Of a DNA stretch of 64,000 nt, positions 462 through 48,910 are shown in pieces (the first letter of the stretch is position 1; each line of letters opens with the position of its first letter). The translations under genes were made by a program, and so were the position numbers. The notes under the pieces are model-generated. The model did not search any database and was not told where the DNA came from. It saw only the letters and a list, made by a program, of their open reading frames with translations. Location of the stretch: NCBI GenBank assembly GCA_018057825.1, contig JAGPCY010000004.1, positions 124,001-188,000 on the forward strand, written 5' to 3'. Source of the DNA: Kofleriaceae bacterium (GTDB lineage: Bacteria > Myxococcota_A > Polyangia > Haliangiales > Haliangiaceae).

Positions 462-935
462 ATGGGCATGAACCTAGGTGGCGGCGGGGGAGTGAAGAAC
501 GACATCAACGTGACGCCGCTCATCGACGTCGTCTTGGTGCTGCTCATCATCTTCCTCGTGACCATGCCGATCATGATGCGGACGATCACCCTCGAGGTGC
601 CGCGCAAGACCACCGACATGGACGACGTGTCGGCGGTCGGCAAGCAGATCACGGTGACGGTCAAGGCCGACCTCACGGTCGTGATCAACACCGGCGACAA
701 GGAGCTCGAGCCGATGCCGGTGGCCGCGGTCGCGACCACGATCCGCCCGCTCCTCGAGGACAAGAAGACCGAGAAGCTGGTCTTCGTCGACTTCGAGCCC
801 CGGGTGCCGTGGGCCGAGGTCGTCGGCGTGATGGACAGCATCCGCGCGGTGTCGAGCGACCCCCAGCACAACGACATCAAGGTCGCGCTCAAGATGAAGG
901 ACGACAAGGCCCCCGAGGGCGCCGTGAATCCGTGA
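462..935 (+). CDS. ExbD/TolR family biopolymer transport protein
   Basis: 157 residues. The N-terminus has a Gly-rich cytoplasmic tail, then NDINVTPLIDVVLVLLIIFL, the transmembrane helix with the proton-channel Asp. A periplasmic domain typical of ExbD/TolR follows. It starts 4 bp after the first ExbD gene, so the pair is translated from one message. Tandem ExbD paralogues with one ExbB are common in Myxococcota and related groups, and the two copies are presumed to form heteromers. The transcript seems to end in the double hairpin at 947-1000. The start is the ATG at 462; no closer alternative fits the conserved N-terminus. Confidence 0.94.
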   Translation: MGMNLGGGGGVKNDINVTPLIDVVLVLLIIFLVTMPIMMRTITLEVPRKTTDMDDVSAVGKQITVTVKADLTVVINTGDKELEPMPVAAVATTIRPLLEDKKTEKLVFVDFEPRVPWAEVVGVMDSIRAVSSDPQHNDIKVALKMKDDKAPEGAVNP

Positions 936-946
936 TACGTGAGCCA

Positions 947-1000
947 GAGAGGGTTTTTCGAAAAAACCCTCCCCCAGCATTCGCTGGGGCCCCCTCCCAA
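947..1000 (+). repeat. Solo copy of the double-hairpin 3'-end repeat, likely transcript end
   Basis: Starts 11 nt after the ExbD stop codon. Hairpin 1 has arms AGGGTTTTT / AAAAACCCT around TCGA (950-970). It is followed by CCCCC and hairpin 2, CCCCAGC-ATTC-GCTGGGG (about 972-990), then CCCCCTCCC. The same order (AGGGTTT hairpin, C-run, GC-rich hairpin, C-rich tail) appears on the minus strand just after the stop codon at 26564. A 17-nt piece (AAACCCTCCCCCAGCAT) recurs at 1112-1128. There is no classical U-tract after the stems, so I call it a structured 3'-end repeat rather than a proven intrinsic terminator. Confidence 0.6.
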
Positions 1001-1186
1001 AACGTCCGGATCTCGGAAGCGCCGTCGGTGACCCCACCGGCGGCGTTGTTGCGTGAGGGCGGGGGTTCTGCCGCTGTCTGCTTCAGCGCGGGTTGGCGGT
1101 GACCTCCGGCGAAACCCTCCCCCAGCATGCGCGAGAGCAGCGAACGGTTTGAATGCCGTCGCGAGACGGGGACGTGTGAGGCAGAT

Positions 1187-4392: not shown

Positions 4393-4758
4393 TCACCAGA
4401 CGTTGGCGTCGTCGCCCAGGGGGCCGCGCTGCGCGCGGACGACGCAGAAGCGATGGCCGGTGGGCGCCTCCATGACCCACCAGGTGCCGACCTGGCGCAG
4501 GCGCTTGGCGCCGAGCGCCTCGAGGCGCGCGACCTCGGCGGGGATGTCGTCGGTCTCGATGTCGAGGTGGACCCGGCTCGGGTGATCGACGCGCTGGACG
4601 AAGACGATGGGCTGGTTGGCGCGGTCGGCGAGGGTGGCGTAGTCGCCCTCGGTCTCGACGACGGGGCGCCCGAGTGCGGCGCTCCAGAAGGCGGCGGCGG
4701 TGTCGAGATCGCCCTCCTGGCAATCGATCCCGAACGAACACAGACGGCTCTTGTGCAT
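4393..4758 (-). CDS. VOC (glyoxalase/bleomycin-resistance fold) family protein
   Basis: 121 residues, the length of a single-domain VOC protein. The pattern fits: an N-terminal beta-strand with CSFGIDC, the AAAFWSAALG helix, HLDIETDDI as central strand with a possible metal-ligand His, and a C-terminal WWVMEAPTGHRFCVV strand. VOC proteins bind a divalent metal and act on small molecules (isomerases, dioxygenases, antibiotic binding); the substrate cannot be predicted. A TAGGCT box ends 7 nt before the ATG with no Shine-Dalgarno. The gene lies 50 bp upstream of the lipoprotein gene on the same strand and may share its transcript. Confidence 0.85.
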   Translation of the reverse strand: MHKSRLCSFGIDCQEGDLDTAAAFWSAALGRPVVETEGDYATLADRANQPIVFVQRVDHPSRVHLDIETDDIPAEVARLEALGAKRLRQVGTWWVMEAPTGHRFCVVRAQRGPLGDDANVW

Positions 4759-4765
4759 GGCCCGC

Positions 4766-4771
4766 AGCCTA
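4766..4771 (-). promoter_or_regulatory. Putative leaderless -10 box for the VOC gene
   Basis: Minus strand reads GGTAGGCT; the hexamer TAGGCT ends 7 nt before the ATG at 4758. This places a +1 at or next to the start codon. Spacing and sequence match many other genes in the window. Confidence 0.45.
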
Positions 4772-4777
4772 CCGCGC

Positions 4778-5110
<333 letters not shown>

Positions 5111-5142
5111 CCTCCGGCCCGGCTCCTCCCGCCCCCGCGCCG

Positions 5143-6042
5143 CTACTTCACGACGATCTTCCCGAGGCCGCGCAGCTCGCCCGTCATCTCCCAGGTCGTG
5201 CCGCGCTTGGCGAAGCGCCGAAACCGGAGCTGGCCGCCGCGGTTGAGCTTCACGTAGAGGATGGTCGACGCGCGATCGAGATCACCGCCGGTCAAGGTGA
5301 GGGCCGTGCCCTCGGGATCGACGAGGGTCACGGTGGTCGGCGCGGTGGTGACGCCGGCGGCGGTCAGGAGATCGAGGATGTGCCAGCCCGGGGTCTCGGT
5401 GTCGCCGATCGGCGCGGTGATCGACGGCACGGCGGTGAGCTTGTCGCCGGTGAGGACGGTCGGGCCGGCGGCGGTCTCGACCGTGATGGTCAGGGCGGCG
5501 GTGGGCGCCGGGCGCTCGCCGTCGCCGTCGTGGCGGTGGCCTTCGCCGTCCCCGCCGCCGCGGTTGCCCTTGGCCATGACCTCGGCCGCGACCGCGCCGC
5601 GATCGTCTTTGGTCTTGACGATCACCTTGGCCAGGGGCGCGACCGGCGAGGTCAGGACGCCGCCCTTGGCGAGGCCGAAGGCCACGGCGCCTCGCGCGTC
5701 GACGGCCAGGGCCGGGATCGCGTCGGCGTGCTCGCGGGCGGGGGCCATGATCGTCGTGGCCTGGCCGTCGGCGGCGATCGCGATCACCGCCAGCCAGGTC
5801 TCGGGGGCGCTCACGCCCGGCACGACCTCGACCAGTGCCCGCGGCGCGGTCGACAGCGACGCCGAGGTCGCGACCTGGCGCTCGTCGATGAAGAGCGCGA
5901 TCGGTCGGTCGGTCCGGGCCGGCGGCGGTGTGGCCTTCTTGCAACCAGCGCTGAGCCCGATGCTGAGCCCGGCCGTGGCGACGACCGCGGTGACGGCGGC
6001 CAGGTTGAACGCGACCGACACGGTGAGGCGACCGAACGACAT
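5143..6042 (-). CDS. Lipoprotein of unknown function
   Basis: 299 residues. The N-terminus has a hydrophobic stretch ending in lipobox LSAGC followed by KK and a Pro-rich linker. Mid-protein there is a His/Asp/Gly-rich loop (GEGHRHDGDGER) that could bind a metal. The C-terminal third (WHILDLLTAAGV and following strands) faintly recalls the molybdopterin-binding fold of sulfite-oxidase-like proteins, but without ligands I can confirm. The start at 6042 keeps a normal lipoprotein signal. It begins 11 bp after the next lipoprotein gene upstream ends, so the two form an operon. Function unknown. Confidence 0.8.
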   Translation of the reverse strand: MSFGRLTVSVAFNLAAVTAVVATAGLSIGLSAGCKKATPPPARTDRPIALFIDERQVATSASLSTAPRALVEVVPGVSAPETWLAVIAIAADGQATTIMAPAREHADAIPALAVDARGAVAFGLAKGGVLTSPVAPLAKVIVKTKDDRGAVAAEVMAKGNRGGGDGEGHRHDGDGERPAPTAALTITVETAAGPTVLTGDKLTAVPSITAPIGDTETPGWHILDLLTAAGVTTAPTTVTLVDPEGTALTLTGGDLDRASTILYVKLNRGGQLRFRRFAKRGTTWEMTGELRGLGKIVVK

Positions 6043-10488: not shown

Positions 10489-11336
10489 TGACCGCCGTCA
10501 CCACCCGCAGCGAGCAGCGCTCGTTCGGCGGCGTCATGGGCTTCTACCAGCACGCCAGCGCGGCCTGCGCCGGCGCGATGCGGTTCGCGGTGTACCTGCC
10601 GCCGGCCGCGGCGCGCGGCCCGGTGCCGGCGCTCTACTACCTGGCCGGCCTGACCTGCACCGAGGAGACCTTCGTCGTGAAGGCCGGGGCCCAGCGGCTG
10701 GCCGCCGAGCTCGGCCTGGCCCTGGTGGCCTGCGACACCAGCCCGCGCGAGGCTCGGTTCCCCGGCGATGACACGGCCTGGGACTTCGGCCAGGGCGCCG
10801 GGTTCTACCTCGACGCCACCGCCGCGCCGTGGCGCGACGCCTACCGGATGGAGACCTACGTCGTCGACGAGCTGGTCGCCACTGTCGAGGCGGCCTTCCC
10901 GATCGCTGGCGATCGCCGCGGCATCACCGGTCATTCGATGGGCGGCCACGGCGCGTTGACCCTGGCGCTCCGCCACCCGGGTCGCTACGCCAGCGTGTCG
11001 GCGCTGGCGCCGATCGTCGCGCCGAGTCAGGTGCCGTGGGGCCACAAGGCCTTCACCGGCTACCTCGGCGACGATCGTGCGGCCTGGGCCGCCCACGACG
11101 CGTGCGCGCTGGTCGCCGGCGGCGCGCGCTTCCCCGGGCCGGTGCTGATCGATCAGGGCCTGGCCGACAAGTTCCTCGAGCGCGAGCTGGTCCCCGAGCG
11201 CCTCGAGGAGGCGGCCGCGGCGGCCGGCGTCGACGTCACCGTGCGCCGGCACGCCGGCTACGACCACAGCTACTACTTCGTGGCCAGCTTCATCGAGGAT
11301 CACCTGCGGCACCACGCGGCCGCGCTGGTGCGGTAG
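10488..11336 (+). CDS. frmB: S-formylglutathione hydrolase
   Basis: 282 residues. Alpha/beta-hydrolase of the esterase D family: LYYLAGLTCTEE near residue 50, nucleophile Ser150 in GHSMGGHG, and the acid and His in DQGLADKF and GYDHSYYF. It hydrolyses S-formylglutathione to formate and glutathione, the second step after frmA. Its ATG shares one base with the frmA stop, so the two are coupled. No formate dehydrogenase follows; the transcript instead runs into a hexanucleotide array. Family assignment is certain. Confidence 0.97.
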
Positions 11337-11545
11337 GAGGTCGAGGCGGAGGCGGAGGCGGGGACCGAGACCGAGGCGGAGGCCGAGACCGAGACCGAGG
11401 CGGAGGCCGAGACCGAGGCCGAGACCGAGTCCGAGACCGAGTCCGAGACCGAGGCCGAGACCGAGTCCGAGACCGATGCGGAGGCCGAGTCCGAGACCGA
11501 GTCCGAGACCGAGTCCGAGTCCGAGTCCGAGACCGAGTCCGAGGT
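11337..11545 (+). repeat. Hexanucleotide array directly 3' of frmB
   Basis: Begins at the base after the frmB stop. Plus-strand units are GAGGCG, GAGACC, GAGGCC and, toward the right, GAGTCC in long runs, with one GATGCG. It reads GAGNCC on the frmB strand, as in the other six arrays. From 11546 to 11687 I see no further feature. The array plus that stretch fill the 351-bp gap before the next gene. Confidence 0.88.
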
Positions 11546-11687
11546 AGATGGTTGGTGCGGCTGCGACGGGCGCGACGATCCGGTGGTCGCACGGCACCTT
11601 CGGTGGCTCGGCGATGGTTGGCGCTGCTATTCGCTGTCACCGCGGCGCGGAGGCGCGGCGGACGGCAGGCGTGGCACCGTCACGGCG

Positions 11688-24092: not shown

Positions 24093-26072
24093 ATGAGCGC
24101 CGTCCTCCGCACCTTGATCCTGCCGTCGACCGTGACCGACTTCGAGCGCGCCTACCTGCGCAAGGTCAACCGGGTCGGGCTGGGGTTCTTCCTCGCCCAC
24201 CTGCCGGTCCTGCCGCTGGTCGCGTGGTGGAACGACACCGGCCCGCTCCTGGCCCTGGTCTTGACCGTCCTGGTGGCGATCGGACCGGCGCTGGCGTTCG
24301 TGGCGGCGCCCAACCCGCGCACGGTCGGTGTGGTGTACGGCGTCGCGGCCATGGCGATGGGTGGGGTCCTGGTGCACCACGGCCACGGCGAGCACCAGAT
24401 CGAGATGCACTTCTACTTCTTCGTCGTGCTCGCGATGATGGCGGTCTACGCCAACCCCCTGGCGATCGTCGCCGCGGCGGCGACGGTGGCGATCCACCAC
24501 GTCGTCTTGTTCGCCTGGTTGCCCGGCAGCGTGTTCAACCACGACGCGACCTACTGGACCGTGGTCCTGCACGCCCTGTTCGTGGTGATCGAGTCGGTCG
24601 CCACGGTGTTCATCGCGCGCAGCTTCTTCGACAACGTCGTCGGCCTCGAGAAGATCGTCGCGCAGCGGACCGCCGATCTCGACGCCCGCAACCGCGAGCT
24701 ACGCCTGGTGCTCGACCACGTCGATCAGGCGATGTTGACGATCGATCGCGACGGCGCGATGTCGCCCGAGTGCTCGGCGACCACCGAGGTCTGGTTCGGA
24801 CCGCGCCGCGTCCCGACCTTCGCCGACTACCTGCGGCCCCATGCCCCGGGCGCCGCCGATCAGTTCGCGGTGGCGTGGGAGCAGGCGACCCAGGAGATCC
24901 TGCCGATCGAGCTGGCGATCGATCAGCTCCCCCACGACCTGGCGATCGGCGACCGCGCGTACCAGCTCGCGTACACGCCGATCGAGCACGACGCCCACAT
25001 CAGCGGCGCCCTGGTCGTGATCACCGACGTGACCGCCGAGGTCGCCGCCGCCCAGCTCGAGGCCGAGCGCCGCGAGTTCGCCACGGCGGTCCAGCACCTG
25101 GCCGCCGATCGCACCGGGTTCCTGGAGTTCCTCGCCGAGGCCCACGCCCAGGTGACCGCAGTCACCGGGCGGCAGCGGCCCAACCCGGTGGCCTTCAAGC
25201 GCATGGTCCACACCCTCAAGGGCAACGCCGCGATCTACGAGTTCACGTCGATCGCCCAGGCCTGCGAGCGGATCGAGGACGAGCTCGCGTCGCCCGGGGC
25301 CGCGTCCGACACCACCCTGGCCGCGCTGGCCGCGCGCTGGGGCCGGCTCGAAAGCGCGCTCCACAGCCTCCTCGATCGTGGCAACCGCCACCGGATGGAG
25401 GTCGACGAGGCCGATTACCGCGCGGCCCTGGACGCCATCGCTCGCGGCGAGTCCCATGCCGACCTGGCCGCGCAGCTCACGCGCTGGCGGATGGAGCCGA
25501 TCGGCCGCCGCCTGGCCAAGGTCCGGGAGCAGGCGCGCCGGATCGCGACCCGCCTGGGCAAGACCGACCTACGGGTCGAGGTCGAGGGCGAGGACGTCCA
25601 GATCGATCCTGAGCGCTGGGCGCCGCTGTGGGGCTCCTTCGTCCACCTGATCAGAAACGCGATCGATCACGGCATCGAGGCCTCGGACGAGCGCATCGCC
25701 CGCGGCAAGGCGCCGGCAGGTCGCCTGGTCATCCGCGCCACCGAGGACGACCACGAGACCCGCCTCGAGCTGCGCGACGACGGCCGCGGCATCGACTGGC
25801 AGGCCGTCGCGGCCCGCGGTCGCGACCTGGGCGTCTCGGCCAAGAGCCGCGAGAGCCTGGTGGAGGCCCTGTTCGCCGACGGCCTGTCGACCCGCATCGA
25901 GGTCAGCGAGTTCTCCGGCCGTGGCGTCGGCCTGGGCGCCGTGCGCGCCGCCGCCGTCGCCGCCGGCGGCACCATGACCATCGACAGCGAGCCCGGCCAG
26001 GGCACCACCATCCGGTTCTCGATCCCCCGCGCCCCGCTCGCCCCGGCAGCCGCCCCCGGCCGCGCGGCCTGA
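24093..26072 (+). CDS. Membrane CheA-like histidine kinase with PAS and HPt domains
   Basis: 659 residues. Five to six membrane helices (~28-175) include HHGHGEHQIEMHFYFFVVL, a His-rich sensor-like segment seen in other kinases and MCPs. A coiled-coil linker and PAS-like domain (~185-318) follow. An HPt-type helix bundle has phospho-acceptor His373 in VHTLKGNA. The ATP-binding domain has HLIRNAIDHGIE as N-box, DDGRGID and GRGVGLGAV. There is no CheW-like domain and no receiver. The HPt His linked to a CheA-type ATPase suggests trans-phosphorylation to the CheY two genes upstream. GGAG lies 7 nt before the ATG. A hexamer array starts right after the stop. Confidence 0.88.
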   Translation: MSAVLRTLILPSTVTDFERAYLRKVNRVGLGFFLAHLPVLPLVAWWNDTGPLLALVLTVLVAIGPALAFVAAPNPRTVGVVYGVAAMAMGGVLVHHGHGEHQIEMHFYFFVVLAMMAVYANPLAIVAAAATVAIHHVVLFAWLPGSVFNHDATYWTVVLHALFVVIESVATVFIARSFFDNVVGLEKIVAQRTADLDARNRELRLVLDHVDQAMLTIDRDGAMSPECSATTEVWFGPRRVPTFADYLRPHAPGAADQFAVAWEQATQEILPIELAIDQLPHDLAIGDRAYQLAYTPIEHDAHISGALVVITDVTAEVAAAQLEAERREFATAVQHLAADRTGFLEFLAEAHAQVTAVTGRQRPNPVAFKRMVHTLKGNAAIYEFTSIAQACERIEDELASPGAASDTTLAALAARWGRLESALHSLLDRGNRHRMEVDEADYRAALDAIARGESHADLAAQLTRWRMEPIGRRLAKVREQARRIATRLGKTDLRVEVEGEDVQIDPERWAPLWGSFVHLIRNAIDHGIEASDERIARGKAPAGRLVIRATEDDHETRLELRDDGRGIDWQAVAARGRDLGVSAKSRESLVEALFADGLSTRIEVSEFSGRGVGLGAVRAAAVAAGGTMTIDSEPGQGTTIRFSIPRAPLAPAAAPGRAA

Positions 26073-26073
26073 G

Positions 26074-26245
26074 CGCGAGAGCCCGAACCCGAGCCCGAAC
26101 CCGAACCCGAACCCGAACCCGAGTCCGAACCCGAGTCCGAGTCCGAGTCCGAGTCCGAACCCGAGACCGAGTCCGAGTCCGAGTCCGAGTCCGAGTCCGA
26201 GTCCGAGTCCGAGTCCGAGTCCGAGTACGAGCCCGAACGCGATCC
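26074..26245 (+). repeat. Hexanucleotide array directly 3' of the histidine kinase gene
   Basis: Plus-strand units are GAACCC and GAGCCC on the left, changing to long runs of GAGTCC on the right, with one GAGACC. It starts within 2 nt of the stop codon and reads in the same sense as the kinase. The variant used differs from the arrays rich in GAGACC, so each array seems to expand its own local version. Confidence 0.88.
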
Positions 26246-26279
26246 CAGTACGTCTGAGTTCACCCGACCCTACGCTGAA

Positions 26280-26565
26280 CCTCCGGCGCCCCGGAGGGGC
26301 GCCGGCCGACCGGAGGGAGGCGTCTCGGAGGGGAGGCTCGCCGGGGGCGTGACCCCGGCGAGGGGAGGTTTGGTGACAAACCTCCCCAAAGAGCACAGGG
26401 AGGCGTCTCGGAGGGGAGGCTCGCCGGGGGCGTGACCCCGGCGAGGGGAGGTTTGGTGACAAACCTCCCCAAAGAGCACAGGGAGGCGTCTCGGGCGGGG
26501 GACCCGCCGGGGACCTGGCCCCGGCGGGGGAGGGTTTGGTGACAAACCCTCCCAAAAAGAACGCT
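26280..26565 (-). repeat. 83-bp tandem hairpin repeats 3' of the 26564-27202 gene
   Basis: Units start with CGTCTCGG at 26321, 26404 and 26487, a period of 83 bp. Copies 1 and 2 are identical, and copy 3, next to the gene, has diverged. Each unit folds into two hairpins: GCCGGGG/CCCCGGC, and GGGAGGTTTG/CAAACCTCCC around GTGA. On the minus strand it starts about 13 nt after the TAG at 26564 and matches the solo element at 947-1000 in order and orientation. With the array at 26074-26245 it accounts for the 491-bp gap between these convergent genes. Confidence 0.85.
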
Positions 26566-27202
26566 AATTCGCTTCGAGGGCCGCGAGCAGCTCGCCCACC
26601 GACGCCTCGACCCGACCCGCGAGGGCCTTGGTCACCGGCAGGTCGTCCTCGGCGAGCAAGGCCGAGAGCCGGCGCGCGGCGCCCAAGAGCTGGCTGCGCA
26701 CGCGCTCCTTGCGCTCGTCGTCGCCCTCGGGGAAGGCGACCTCTTTGTACTTCTTCGCGAGCATCGGCGCCTCGGCGCCTTCCTCGAAGGCGAAGCGCCG
26801 CATGTCGGCCAGGGTGGCCTCGTCGGCGGCGCCGCGATCGGTGGCCTTCTGCACGAACTCGACCGCGGCCATCGACGGGATCGGCTCCTCGGGCAAGGCC
26901 CGGGCGCGCTCGAGGACGTTGGGCGCGCTCGACTCGAGGAAGCGGAAGCTGCCGAGGAGCTTGGCCACCGTCGAGGACCGCAGGTGCAGCTCCTTGCGAC
27001 AGTACGAGTCGAAGTCGGTGAAGCCCCAGCGCCGCCACGACTCGTGCTTCTGGACCCGGGCCAGGGCGTCGGCCAGCTCGAGCCAGGTCCGCTTGAAGGC
27101 GCGGGCCTTGGCCAGGGTGTCGGCGCGCTCGGCGTCACCCGACACCGCCAGCAGGCGGTCTTCCATCTGGCGATCGGTCTTGGTGATGATCTTCGAACCC
27201 AC
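26564..27202 (-). CDS. Unknown protein, helical, DNA-binding-like N-terminal half
   Basis: About 212 residues, no signal peptide or membrane helix, charged and helical. The segment WLELADALARVQKHESWRRWGF, then FDSYCRKELHLRSSTVAKLL and FRFLE, looks like a helix-turn-helix style core, but I cannot name the family. The C-terminal half is Glu/Arg-rich and probably a helical bundle. I chose the GTG at 27202 because TAGCGT lies 7 nt upstream; a GTG at 27211 adds three residues. It is divergent from a lipoprotein gene with a strong palindrome between, and its 3' end touches the 83-bp repeats. Confidence 0.75.
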   Translation of the reverse strand: MGSKIITKTDRQMEDRLLAVSGDAERADTLAKARAFKRTWLELADALARVQKHESWRRWGFTDFDSYCRKELHLRSSTVAKLLGSFRFLESSAPNVLERARALPEEPIPSMAAVEFVQKATDRGAADEATLADMRRFAFEEGAEAPMLAKKYKEVAFPEGDDERKERVRSQLLGAARRLSALLAEDDLPVTKALAGRVEASVGELLAALEAN

Positions 27203-27209
27203 GGCGCGC

Positions 27210-27215
27210 ACGCTA
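27210..27215 (-). promoter_or_regulatory. Putative leaderless -10 box for the unknown gene
   Basis: Minus strand TAGCGT, ending 7 nt before the GTG at 27202. Confidence 0.35.
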
Positions 27216-30171: not shown

Positions 30172-30960
30172 ATGCGCCCCATCCTCCGCACGCTCCTGCC
30201 GCTCGTCGCCTTGCTCGTCTCCGCCGCCGTCGCCGTGGCTCAACCCGACCCGCTGGTCGAGGCGCGGGCCCACTACCAGGCCGGAACCGCCAAGTTCGCC
30301 GCCGCCCAGTACGACGAGGCGGTCGCCGAGTTCCGCGCCGCCGACGCGCTGGCGCCGTCGCCGATGAACGACTTCAACATCGGCCTGGCCCTCGACCGCA
30401 AGGGCGACGCCGCGGGCGCGGTCGCCGCCTATCGCTCGTACCTCAACCGGTCGCCCAACGCCGCCAACCGCGGCGAGGTCGAGGCCTCGATCGCGCGGCT
30501 GGCGTCCGCCGCCGCCGCCGCCGAGGCCGCCGCCGCCGAGGCCGCGCGCCAGGCCGCCGCCGAGGAGGCCGCTCGTCGGGCCGCCGCCGAGGCCGCGGCC
30601 GCCGCGACCCGCCCGGCCGCGCCGTCGACGACCGGCGATCCCACCCTCGACCGGGTCGCGACCGTCGACCTCGCCGCCGCCCGCGGCGCCCAGCCGCTGC
30701 CGGCCCCGAGCGCGGCCGCGACGCCGCCTAGCCCGGCGGGTGGCGATCCAGCGGCGCCGCCGCCGGCCGACCAGCCCAAGCCCAAGGCGTCGAAGCCGAT
30801 CTACAAGAGCCCGGTGTTCTGGGTGCTGGCCGCGGTCGGCGTCTACGTCCTCATCACGCTCGCCGACGACGGCTCGGACACCCAGGCCGGCCGGCTCGGG
30901 TTGATGGAGCCCGTGGGCTCGCCGCGGATGACCGGCGGCGCGACGGTGTTCTCGTTCTGA
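30172..30960 (+). CDS. Exported TPR protein with Ala-rich coiled coil and C-terminal membrane helix
   Basis: 262 residues. A cleavable signal peptide (LLPLVALLVSAAVAVAQ) is followed by a TPR pair (HYQAGTAKFAAAQYDEAVAEFRAADAL, FNIGLALDRKGDAAGAVAAYRSYL). An Ala/Glu/Arg coiled coil spans ~105-145, then a Pro-rich spacer and one membrane helix near 205-225 (SPVFWVLAAVGVYVLITLA). GAGGT precedes the ATG. Proteins of this layout are common beside PEGA kinases in Myxococcota, but the function is not known. Immediately after the stop comes a hexamer array. Confidence 0.82.
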   Translation: MRPILRTLLPLVALLVSAAVAVAQPDPLVEARAHYQAGTAKFAAAQYDEAVAEFRAADALAPSPMNDFNIGLALDRKGDAAGAVAAYRSYLNRSPNAANRGEVEASIARLASAAAAAEAAAAEAARQAAAEEAARRAAAEAAAAATRPAAPSTTGDPTLDRVATVDLAAARGAQPLPAPSAAATPPSPAGGDPAAPPPADQPKPKASKPIYKSPVFWVLAAVGVYVLITLADDGSDTQAGRLGLMEPVGSPRMTGGATVFSF

Positions 30961-31043
30961 GCGAGGGAGAGGCGGAGACCGAGGCGGAGACCGCGGCCGA
31001 GACCGAGGCGGAGGCCGAGACCGAGACCGAGGCCGAGGTGGAG
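30961..31043 (+). repeat. Hexanucleotide array directly 3' of the TPR gene
   Basis: Plus-strand units GAGGCG, GAGACC and GAGGCC start right after the stop codon at 30960 and run nearly to the end of the convergent TauE/SafE gene (31051). As a convergent gap it shows that orientation follows the plus-strand gene that ends at the array, not the one beyond it. Confidence 0.82.
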
Positions 31044-31050
31044 TGGTGGG

Positions 31051-42844: not shown

Positions 42845-43786
42845 CTACGGCGCGTTGGCGTCGTCTTCGATCGCGGCCAGCGCCAGCCGGGTGGCGCCGC
42901 CGAGGAAGCTGAAGTCGATCTTGTCGAGGGTGTCGGTCGGCTGGTGGTAGTGGACGGTGTGGTCGCCGCCGACGAACTCCTCGGACACCCCGATCGCCGG
43001 CAGGCCGCGCTCGACGAACGACTGGTGATCCGAGCGGGTGAAGGCCACCGGGCTCACGCCGAAGCCGCGGGCGGTCGCGTGGCGGCGGTACAGCGCCTCG
43101 AGCGCCGGCGCTGGGGACCACAGCTCGAGCACGCGATCGCCGTCGCCGTCCATGCTGAGCATGTCGAAGTTGTGCATGCTGCGCACCGGGCTGCCGACCA
43201 GCGCGGCGACGTAGGCGCCCGACCCGATCAGGCCGATCTCCTCCTGATCGAAGAACACCAGCTCGATCGGGTGGCGGCGCGGACGCCCGGCCAGGTAGCC
43301 AGCCGCGACCACGACCAGGGCGGTGCCGGTGGCGTTGTCGGCGGCGGCCGGGCTGGCGGGCACGCTGTCGAAGTGGGCGCCGACCACGATCGGCGGGCCG
43401 CTCGGGCCGGCCTCGGTCGGCTCGAGGCGGACCACCAGGTTCTGGCCGGTGCCGTAGTCGCGGGCCACCGGCTCGAGGCCGAGCCGGCGCAGGCGCCCGG
43501 TCAGGTAGTCGCGGGTCTGGGCGCGCTGGGTCGGCGACGACCGCCGGGTCAGGGTCACCCCCGGCGCGGCCGGTTCGGCGCCGGCGAGGACGGCGACCAC
43601 TGTCCGCAGCTCGTCGTCGATCCACGCGCAGTCGTCGGGGCTGGTGCAGGCCGCGGCGGCGTCGAGGTCGCGGGCGTCGGCGGCGGGGGCGGCGTCGGGC
43701 GCGGCCGGCGCATCGACCGCGGGGTTCGTGGCGTCGTCGGCGCCACAGGCGGCGACGAACAGGGCGAGCCAGGGCAAGCGGGTCAC
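42845..43786 (-). CDS. M28-family zinc aminopeptidase lipoprotein
   Basis: 313 residues, GTG start, lipobox LFVAAC. After an Ala/Asp linker the M28 fold shows the co-catalytic zinc ligands in order: His in GAHFDSVP, Asp in AADNATGTA, Glu-Glu in FFDQEEIGL, Asp in NFDMLSMDGDGD and His in TVHYHQPTDTLDK. It is predicted to be a secreted, membrane-anchored aminopeptidase releasing amino acids from peptides. TAGGCT ends 6 nt before the GTG. A hexamer array separates it from the operon upstream. All ligands are intact, so activity is likely. Confidence 0.92.
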   Translation of the reverse strand: MTRLPWLALFVAACGADDATNPAVDAPAAPDAAPAADARDLDAAAACTSPDDCAWIDDELRTVVAVLAGAEPAAPGVTLTRRSSPTQRAQTRDYLTGRLRRLGLEPVARDYGTGQNLVVRLEPTEAGPSGPPIVVGAHFDSVPASPAAADNATGTALVVVAAGYLAGRPRRHPIELVFFDQEEIGLIGSGAYVAALVGSPVRSMHNFDMLSMDGDGDRVLELWSPAPALEALYRRHATARGFGVSPVAFTRSDHQSFVERGLPAIGVSEEFVGGDHTVHYHQPTDTLDKIDFSFLGGATRLALAAIEDDANAP

Positions 43787-43792
43787 CGCGGC

Positions 43793-43798
43793 AGCCTA
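43793..43798 (-). promoter_or_regulatory. Putative leaderless -10 box for the M28 gene
   Basis: Minus strand TAGGCT, 6 nt before the GTG at 43786; identical to the box of the VOC gene. Confidence 0.45.
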
Positions 43799-43825
43799 GC
43801 CCAGGCCCGGCCTCCGCGGGGTCGC

Positions 43826-43980
<155 letters not shown>

Positions 43981-45012
43981 CTACGGCGCGCAGCTCATCG
44001 CGACCTCGCCATCGCGCGGCGTCGTGGCCGCGACCCCGACCGTGCGTCCCACCAGGGCACCGTCGGTGATCGGCACCGAGACCAGCGCCGCCTTGACCTG
44101 CCAGCCGCCGCGCGCACCGGCGCGCCGCTCGAGGACGAAGCTGCCGCGAAGCCGCGCATCGATCGGTGGGGTCCGCCCGGCGAGGCGGGCGCGCAAGGTG
44201 GCCGACGCGATCGCCACCGTACGGCTGGGGGCCAGGGCCAGGCGCAGGCCATCGAGCTCGACGGTCTCGGCGTCGATCGCCGCCGCCAGGGTCGGACCGA
44301 GCCGGACCGCGCCGCCGCGCGCGACCTGGAGCGGATCGGGCCAGGCCGCCAGGGCGTCGGGGCCGCCGTCCCACACCAGCGCGCGATCGCCATCCGGGGC
44401 GATGGCCTCGGCCAGCGCCGCCTGGGCGGCCTTGGCCTCGGGCTGGCCGTCGATCGCCTCGGGCAGGCGCATTCCATCGGGTCCGGTGGCGGCGTCGAGC
44501 CACCGCCCCATCGCCTGCGGGTACGCGACGTGCTCCGCGACCGCGGTCCAGCGATCGTTGTCGCGGACGTAGACCGACATGATCCGCAGCGGCGCGCTGG
44601 CGATCCGCCCGCACACCGGCAGCTCGAAGGTGGCCTCATCGAAGGCCCAGCCCACGGTCTCGTCCGACGACAGGTAGACGTCGAGGGCGCGTGACACCAC
44701 CTTGGTGCGCTGGCCGTCGACGGTGGCGATCGGCCAGCGCTCCGACGGCGCGACCCCGACCGCCAGCTCGCTCGGGCCGGCGCCGATCACGACCAACCCG
44801 ACCTTGGGATCGATGACCGCGGCGGCCGCGGTGCCGTCGAGCCGATCGCGAGCGTAGCTGGCCCGGACCTCGGCGGTCAGCTCGCGCACCAGGCGGGCCC
44901 GGCCACCGCTGCGATCGGTCACCGCCGAGTCGACCAGCACGGTCGAGCGCGGCCGGCGGGTACTGGCGCACCCGGCGGCGACCAGGGCCACGAGCGCCGC
45001 TAGCGCGCGCAC
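43981..45012 (-). CDS. Lipoprotein of unknown function in the XdhC-MocA operon
   Basis: 343 residues, GTG start, lipobox LVAAGC. The mature part is mixed alpha/beta: VLVDSAVTDRSGG, AVIDPKVGLVVIGAGPSELAVGV, then VSRALDVYLSSDETVGWAFDEATFELPVCGR and a domain with DNDRWTAVAEHVAYPQAMGRWL. This resembles other myxobacterial SnoaL-like (nuclear transport factor 2 fold) lipoproteins, but weakly. Its GTG lies inside the last codons of the MocA gene (stop at 45000), so the two overlap by 13 bp and are coupled. A hexamer array starts after its stop. The link to molybdenum cofactor genes is by position only. Confidence 0.72.
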   Translation of the reverse strand: MRALAALVALVAAGCASTRRPRSTVLVDSAVTDRSGGRARLVRELTAEVRASYARDRLDGTAAAAVIDPKVGLVVIGAGPSELAVGVAPSERWPIATVDGQRTKVVSRALDVYLSSDETVGWAFDEATFELPVCGRIASAPLRIMSVYVRDNDRWTAVAEHVAYPQAMGRWLDAATGPDGMRLPEAIDGQPEAKAAQAALAEAIAPDGDRALVWDGGPDALAAWPDPLQVARGGAVRLGPTLAAAIDAETVELDGLRLALAPSRTVAIASATLRARLAGRTPPIDARLRGSFVLERRAGARGGWQVKAALVSVPITDGALVGRTVGVAATTPRDGEVAMSCAP

Positions 45013-48563: not shown

Positions 48564-48597
48564 GCACGCGCCGCGACGAAGCCGCGGGGTCCAGGTC

Positions 48598-48910
<313 letters not shown>

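Follow-up and report, generated by a model that had tools for sequence, protein, structure and literature searches.

A REP-like, probably mobile double-hairpin repeat with a parallel third segment behind stop codons in a Kofleriaceae bacterium

The analysed window, a stretch of 64,000 nucleotides from a Kofleriaceae bacterium (assembly GCA_018057825.1, contig JAGPCY010000004.1, positions 124,001 to 188,000), carries at 26 kb a head-to-tail array of three repeat units, located behind a gene whose product had no match in a Pfam search.

26564..27211, minus strand: host gene of the array, 215 aa, TAG stop
26480..26562, minus strand: unit 1 (gene-proximal, diverged), 83 bp
26528..26553, minus strand: unit 1 hairpin 1, GGGAGGGTTTG-TCAC-CAAACCCTCCC, 11 bp (folding and covariation)
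26504..26527, minus strand: unit 1 hairpin 2, CCGCCGGGG-CCAGGT-CCCCGGCGG, 9 bp, abutting hairpin 1 (folding and covariation)
26493..26499, minus strand: unit 1 third segment, CCCGCCC, after the linker GTCC
26397..26479, minus strand: unit 2, 83 bp
26445..26470, minus strand: unit 2 hairpin 1, GGGGAGGTTTG-TCAC-CAAACCTCCCC
26421..26444, minus strand: unit 2 hairpin 2, TCGCCGGGG-TCACGC-CCCCGGCGA
26410..26416, minus strand: unit 2 third segment, CCCCTCC, 7/7 parallel complement of GGGGAGG
26314..26396, minus strand: unit 3, identical to unit 2
26327..26333, minus strand: unit 3 third segment, CCCCTCC
26285..26303, minus strand: distal tail hairpin beyond the last unit, GGCGCCCC-TCC-GGGGCGCC

In unit 1, a T-rich leader precedes hairpins 1 and 2, which are followed by the linker, the third segment, GAGACGC and the tail; apart from a G opposite A, its CCCGCCC is parallel-complementary to GGGAGGG, the foot of hairpin 1. 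Units 2 and 3 are 82% identical to unit 1. The units, each with an 11-bp hairpin and an adjacent 9-bp hairpin, folded better than all shuffled sequences (z -5.2 and -3.1), and the tail hairpin at 26285..26303 recurs at other loci. Thus sequence comparison and folding confirm the claim of the initial annotation that two identical 83-bp units and a diverged third form two hairpins each; the distance of 13 nt that it gave from the TAG is corrected to 10 nt, the first stem base being 26553. The window also contains GAGNCC-type hexamers arrayed at a period of 12 nt (4699-5211, 11277-11614, 26019-26284, 30950-31044, 43758-44052, and 48572-48900), one of these arrays lying directly past the 26 kb element.

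The second site lies behind exbD.

462..935, plus strand: host gene ExbD/TolR, TGA stop
942..1005, plus strand: diverged single copy (covariance model 30.9 bits, E 4e-5)
949..971, plus strand: hairpin 1, GAGGGTTTTTCGAAAAAACCCTC, 10 bp
972..989, plus strand: hairpin 2, CCCCAGCATTCGCTGGGG, 7 bp
994..1003, plus strand: third segment CTCCCAAAAC, 9/10 parallel complement of GAGGGTTTTT
1112..1128, plus strand: 17-nt remnant of another copy (3' arm of hairpin 1 and 5' arm of hairpin 2)

Here the element follows the order of the 26 kb units (hairpin 1, hairpin 2, C-rich tail) with other loops. The same order and orientation had been claimed for 947-1000, along with the duplication of a 17-nt piece at 1112-1128; both claims held, the element extending over 942-1005 and the 17-mer AAACCCTCCCCCAGCAT being present at 964 and 1112. 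The claimed distance of 11 nt from the ExbD stop is corrected to 13 nt between the TGA and the first stem base. The view that the two sites are unrelated failed: the covariance model that found 942-1005 was built only from TTTG-type units, with the 942 element left out, and both sites therefore belong to one family. No further family copies were found in the window besides those at 26 kb and at 942/1112.

The proposal of a dispersed, mobile or REP-like 3'-end element has largely held, although mobility is no more than probable. An exact hairpin search of the source genome gave 32 places, and a covariance model yielded no fewer than 148 hits there and no fewer than 141 in a sister species (G003); at most 150 candidates per genome were scored, so that these counts are lower bounds. 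Few or no further copies would have refuted the proposal, and this was not the case. Five other congeners gave 0-1 hits each. Arrays of 2-7 copies make up 34 of the 58 sampled clusters in the source genome, and 87 of 90 clusters in the sister are single copies. The two carriers have the element mostly at different genes, with only 2 of 90 upstream flanks common to both; orthologous typA and a second gene bear it in both, but in different subfamilies. Repeats of the same build with sequences of their own occur in distant members of the class (e.g., in G009, G011, G025, G031, G034, G035, G039, and G153), several of them behind stops, terminators or tRNAs, and also in the congener G005. No Rfam covariance model matched the element at the gathering score. 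The repeats in G153 (L253-L265) are ~170 nt long and often tandem; some have terminator T-runs directly before hairpin 1, and some are cut after hairpin 1 or hairpin 2.

Compensatory changes in both stems are very strong. Among 143 aligned copies, 478 two-sided pair changes were observed versus about 12 one-sided ones, 94.5% of cells were paired, and the covariation score was 0.476 compared with at most 0.133 for slid controls. A repair process that yields perfect palindromes may possibly contribute to this covariation. G-U makes up 0.5% of paired stem cells, versus 6.3% in 23 tRNAs from the same loci. RNA helices normally tolerate G-U pairs, and their near-absence thus indicates a constraint on DNA.

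Hairpin 2 is followed by a 4-nt linker and then by a C-rich third segment, which is the parallel (mirror) complement of the hairpin 1 5' arm, counted from the foot (GGGGAGG/CCCCTCC, GGGAAGG/CCCTTCC, GGAGAGG/CCTCTCC, and, at the 942 element, GAGGGTTTT with CTCCCAAAA). Over 99 distinct combinations and six foot positions, 87.6% match this rule versus 65.4% after permutation (z 16). This control, which swaps third segments among elements, does not fully remove relatedness; with one element per distinct arm (21 arms) the values are 84.9% versus 58.3% (z 8.3, 0/2000 permutations). The parallel order is enriched only at linker 4, at no other register from 0 to 7, and the rule holds separately in the source genome, in the sister, and in other families of the class. 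An arm G is opposed by C in 442 of 455 cases, and an arm A by T in 62, A in 33, G in 7, and C in 5; read on the template strand, these data correspond to the purine motif (G.G-C, with either A or T on A-T), and 95 of the 107 A positions comply with it. A parallel rule cannot arise from Watson-Crick pairing inside a single strand, whereas Hoogsteen triplets can give one; the rule is the signature of an intrastrand triple helix. The geometry is natural as well: because the two hairpins abut, the strand emerging from hairpin 2 begins at the foot of hairpin 1. That the three strands actually form a triple helix is inferred from this sequence signature only, without any measurement of a triplex. 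The third segment was also considered as a direct repeat of the hairpin 1 3' arm, pairing antiparallel; this candidate was rejected, as its test was marginal and the parallel order at linker 4 performed far better.

The predicted link to gene ends is strong as well. In 42 of 58 clusters of the source genome and 77 of 90 of the sister, the stop codon of a sense frame falls between -40 and +9 nt relative to the first stem base, compared with 4-5% at random; the most frequent distance is 4-7 nt before the first stem base, and the elements are oriented sense to the upstream gene. In the sister, CTGA is found at 49 of 72 element-bearing stops (68%) versus 76 of 308 others (25%; Fisher p 9e-12), and RTGA is avoided at the former; the bias is weaker in the source genome (15 of 35 versus 86 of 341 in the background, p 0.04). 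YTGA peaks 8-11 nt upstream of the stem, with up to 22 cases versus 0.34 expected per offset, and subfamily B has CTGAG both at its start and at its end. In addition, three sister copies lie directly behind tRNA-like 3' ends, as read by eye, and one directly behind a retron ncRNA. The initial annotation had not noticed the rule for the third strand, the preference for CTGA, or the spread across the class.

One possible but less likely alternative is a host-serving 3'-end RNA element (an mRNA stabiliser, processing signal or attenuator) that selection maintains behind genes and gene conversion homogenises, while active transposition is slight or absent. It is supported by the tight stop spacing, by the copies directly behind tRNA 3' ends and the retron ncRNA, by the presence of different subfamilies at typA and the second orthologous gene of both species, and by the recurrence of the architecture across the class. 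However, G-U pairs are almost absent, and the third-strand data are better fit by DNA purine-motif triplets than by RNA, in which purine-motif triplexes do not form (PMC4666352). The element is also nearly absent from five congeners with the same genes, most loci are unshared, and the CTGA target preference likewise speaks against an RNA function.

Unusual transcription terminators lacking a U-tract would account for strong hairpins placed behind stops and tRNAs. We consider this explanation very unlikely, as no terminator-like site was found at the 26 kb window locus, where a T-run precedes the hairpin and does not follow it. In another family of the class, the element sits behind existing terminator T-tracts. 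Finally, among 89 sister elements with a called downstream gene, 54 lie between co-directional genes, 16 of them at most 40 nt from the next start, and the gap-pgk, ilvC-leuA, and rpoZ-tmk junctions are among the sites occupied.

Comparison with relatives reveals empty sites. Behind typA, the same stop is followed by a bare junction without the element in G001, G002, G005, and G006, and the gap-pgk junction, occupied by an element in the sister, spans just a few nucleotides in relatives. In the sister leuA, the element lies within the gene start, which is duplicated, leaving an intact leuA downstream; relatives have one copy. At tmk and a convergent gene, the flanks are duplicated over 38 and 64 nt, and L106 shows a weaker duplication (16/18). 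Overall, four insertions have flanking duplications of 16-64 nt, and the other tested insertions have none. Leaders are T-rich in the source genome, the sister elements have no T-tracts, and copies are cut short at the distal end only.

The gap-pgk junction of the source genome (L344, upstream of pgk) has a different paired-hairpin sequence. Gene-proximal solo fragments of hairpin 1 (or of hairpins 1 and 2), with short G/T-rich junctions and then a full copy after them, were observed at L019, L021, L086, L100, L120, and L123. At L025, L107, L114, L121, and L122, another repeat, ending in CGTTGCAAGGG-type sequence, replaces the 5' half of hairpin 1, and at L103:2893-3029 and L104:3015-3150 the two hairpins are separated by related inserts of ~66 nt (AGGTGGAGGCAGGGGGG...GTGCA). 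An IS is situated within the hairpin 1 loop at L027:3143-3280, L028, and L115 (contig ends of C66, C70, and C15); its start resembles an IS4-type transposase by eye, GTCGCC/GTCACC is apparently duplicated, and the assembly breaks there.

Target-primed retroposition would offer another route, in which the antisense strand, with an A-tail and a GNRA-looped hairpin at its 3' end, serves as template and is reverse transcribed into T-tracts by a retron-type reverse transcriptase. The T-rich leaders, the truncation of copies only distally, the variable length of the flanking duplications, the type XIII retron reverse transcriptase detected by profile in the source genome, and the msDNA-like repeats of Nannocystis cited in PMC6868368 are in agreement with it. 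However, similar-scoring RVT_1 genes occur in congeners without elements, the sister elements lack T-tracts, most insertions have no duplication, and there is no resemblance to the retron msd, apart from the element placed beside it; this explanation is very unlikely. A retron origin was likewise rejected: the model R2 found no similarity to the msd, and the only clear hit at a retron locus is the element after the ncRNA. The idea of a small ribozyme, considered by eye only, was dropped. RVT_1 genes were observed across the genus (L277-L289), and at L280:630-955 (G003) an element lies between the apparent a2 repeat of a retron ncRNA and the reverse transcriptase gene.

No Y1 (HUH) transposase was detected in the source genome by the Pfam profile or with the sister protein, and any mobilising enzyme is thus inferred. 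In the sister, a divergent Y1 (RAYT-like) protein (255 aa at L301), with YVLNNW at the catalytic tyrosine and a weak match to NF047646 (28 bits, cut-off 80), is encoded many times, in units bounded by terminal inverted repeats CTGATCATTCATC. An element lies at the unit edge in 8 of 15 sampled Y1 loci and nowhere else in those loci; the junction between unit and element is the GAC of GAGACGC at three loci, and the unit at L301 has a 10-bp duplicated target. Some relatives have many Y1 genes but no elements, and no hairpin-1-like flanks were observed at Y1 copies of congeners in 14 loci. The adjacency of Y1 units and elements supports either a functional link or a preferred landing site; mobilisation is inferred and remains unproven. 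Nested long palindromes (e.g., GCGCTGTGGAGTTGCCGGCGGTG... and GCGCTGTGTGGGTTGTGAAGAACGGCGCC) were observed upstream of the Y1 open reading frames in sister units (L299-L309).

The repeats could also be old, immobile and passive, spread by recombination and tandem slippage and serving as targets of Y1 and other IS units. The tandem arrays in the source genome (34/58 clusters), the lack of a detected Y1 there, and the IS units inside elements speak for this possibility; the single dispersed copies of the sister, with their precise CTGA junctions, speak against it and make it unlikely.

On balance, our data favour, by a modest margin, a REP-like, non-autonomous mobile element acting as folded single-stranded DNA, with Y1 mobilisation, physical triplex formation, and any RNA effect being inferred. 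Copy number, position, orientation, the CTGA preference, stem covariation, the parallel rule, empty sites, and the sister Y1 units in or beside elements are shown; the near-absence in five congeners, the mostly unshared sites, the empty sites, and these Y1 units together make mobility probable. In gene direction, the proposed element would open with the tetranucleotide YTGA, mostly in the form CTGA and usually provided by the stop codon of the host gene. A leader of ~5 nt would lead to hairpin 1, whose 5' arm is rich in purines, with hairpin 2 stacked directly on it; the 4-nt linker would come next, and then a pyrimidine third strand that would fit into the major groove of the first hairpin. 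The conserved motif (G/T/A)ACG and a tail of variable length, reaching ~60 nt at most, would complete the element. A HUH single-strand Y1 transposase (TnpA-REP-like) would recognise the hairpin and cut at its foot, and the copy would be joined downstream of a CTGA target. An insertion at a stop codon leaves the gene intact, and such copies would therefore survive, always sense to the gene. Copies in the source genome would multiply mainly as tandem arrays, and transcribed hairpins would probably also act as a barrier to 3' exonucleases, as a side effect.

Several points weigh against this mobile-element reading. No Y1 was detected here, while relatives rich in Y1 have no elements; the sister Y1 units, which have terminal inverted repeats and, at L301, also a target duplication, may merely use elements as landing sites; simple HUH insertion would not make the 16-64 nt flanking duplications seen at four insertions; and the GTAG foot of canonical REPs is missing. 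A bolder reading is a class-wide Myxococcota superfamily of mobile elements with the triple helix as identity tag, in which a triplex-capped single-stranded DNA hairpin would be recognised by the transposition machinery and inserted at stop codons, hairpin 1 and the third strand being co-selected. We find this extension conceivable, but the balance of evidence at present tips slightly against it.

Triple helices in bacterial genomes have so far lacked comparative evidence, which 21 distinct hairpin arms from several species in one fixed register now supply, and the cellular use of intrastrand triplexes becomes directly testable. The element adds a CTGA-footed, stop-codon-seeking kind to the REP-like elements, and the two sister species form a natural pair, one with and one without detectable Y1 transposases.

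Among known systems, REPs and REPtrons (TnpA-REP, RAYT; PMC3733652, PMC6006769, PMC8266576) share with the element short, high-copy extragenic palindromes near the 3' ends of ORFs, predominantly between unidirectional or convergent genes, and the association with Y1 transposases, here in the sister species. REPs located at most 20 bp from an ORF end, stop codons provided by the tag, and Y1 genes flanked by terminal inverted repeats are already known (PMC3733652); the stop is the TAG of GTAG REPs in that work and TGA in the myxobacterial element. In contrast to REPs, the foot is YTGA ~5 nt from the stem and not GTAG (GT[AG]G), the element consists of two stacked hairpins, a third strand and a tail (73-140 bp), its arrays have the same orientation whereas REPs form inverted dimers, and no cognate TnpA-REP/RAYT was found in the source genome. 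CGTC-tagged REPs bear CGTC at one end of the palindrome; in the element, antisense CGTC (GACG) ends the core in 119 of 136 copies here, ~11 nt from the nearest stem, and many sister copies have TACG or AACG. The 8-9 bp stem of those REPs starts with two A-T pairs, while the foot pairs of the element are G-C. Class 3 TnpA-Y1 systems, which are rare and reach ~600 copies in Solibacter usitatus (PMC6006769), have a CnGA foot that includes CTGA and high-copy atypical structures, but their signature is Y----Q and not the YVLNNW of the sister Y1. TIRtrons (TIRYT; PMC3733652) resemble the sister units in having Y1 genes bounded by terminal inverted repeats, although the sister units sit in or beside hairpin elements that themselves have no such repeats.

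Without terminal inverted repeats or general target duplication, the elements do not qualify as MITEs of DDE transposons, nor as intrinsic terminators, in which a T-run follows a G+C-rich hairpin; here it precedes the hairpin. The msDNA-like repeats of Nannocystis exedens (Lampson 1997, 2002, cited in PMC6868368) are likewise dispersed structured repeats in a myxobacterium, but no similarity of the element to the retron msd was found. BoxC, PIT, and TM-ECO (PMC4666352) are dispersed bacterial repeats with the capacity to form a G/C-rich triple helix from one strand, and our elements obey the sequence rule for such an intrastrand triplex through the parallel third strand. BoxC belongs to class II (Y-R-RH), with 37 nt, no strand bias, and loops of 1-6 nt, whereas the element falls into class I when read on the template strand and into class III when read on the sense strand, is tied to the 3' ends of genes, and has the order R-Y-hairpin-Hoogsteen, its loop of ~24-28 nt holding the second hairpin and lying outside the loop range of 1-6 nt that the ITxF search covers. 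Known BoxC/PIT copies are extraordinarily identical and thus say little about selection for the third strand, and the open-access literature searched yielded no account of a REP-like element in which a third strand covaries. Overall, the element behaves like a REP, although it is not a canonical one by foot or resident enzyme, and it combines REP features with those of intrastrand triplexes.
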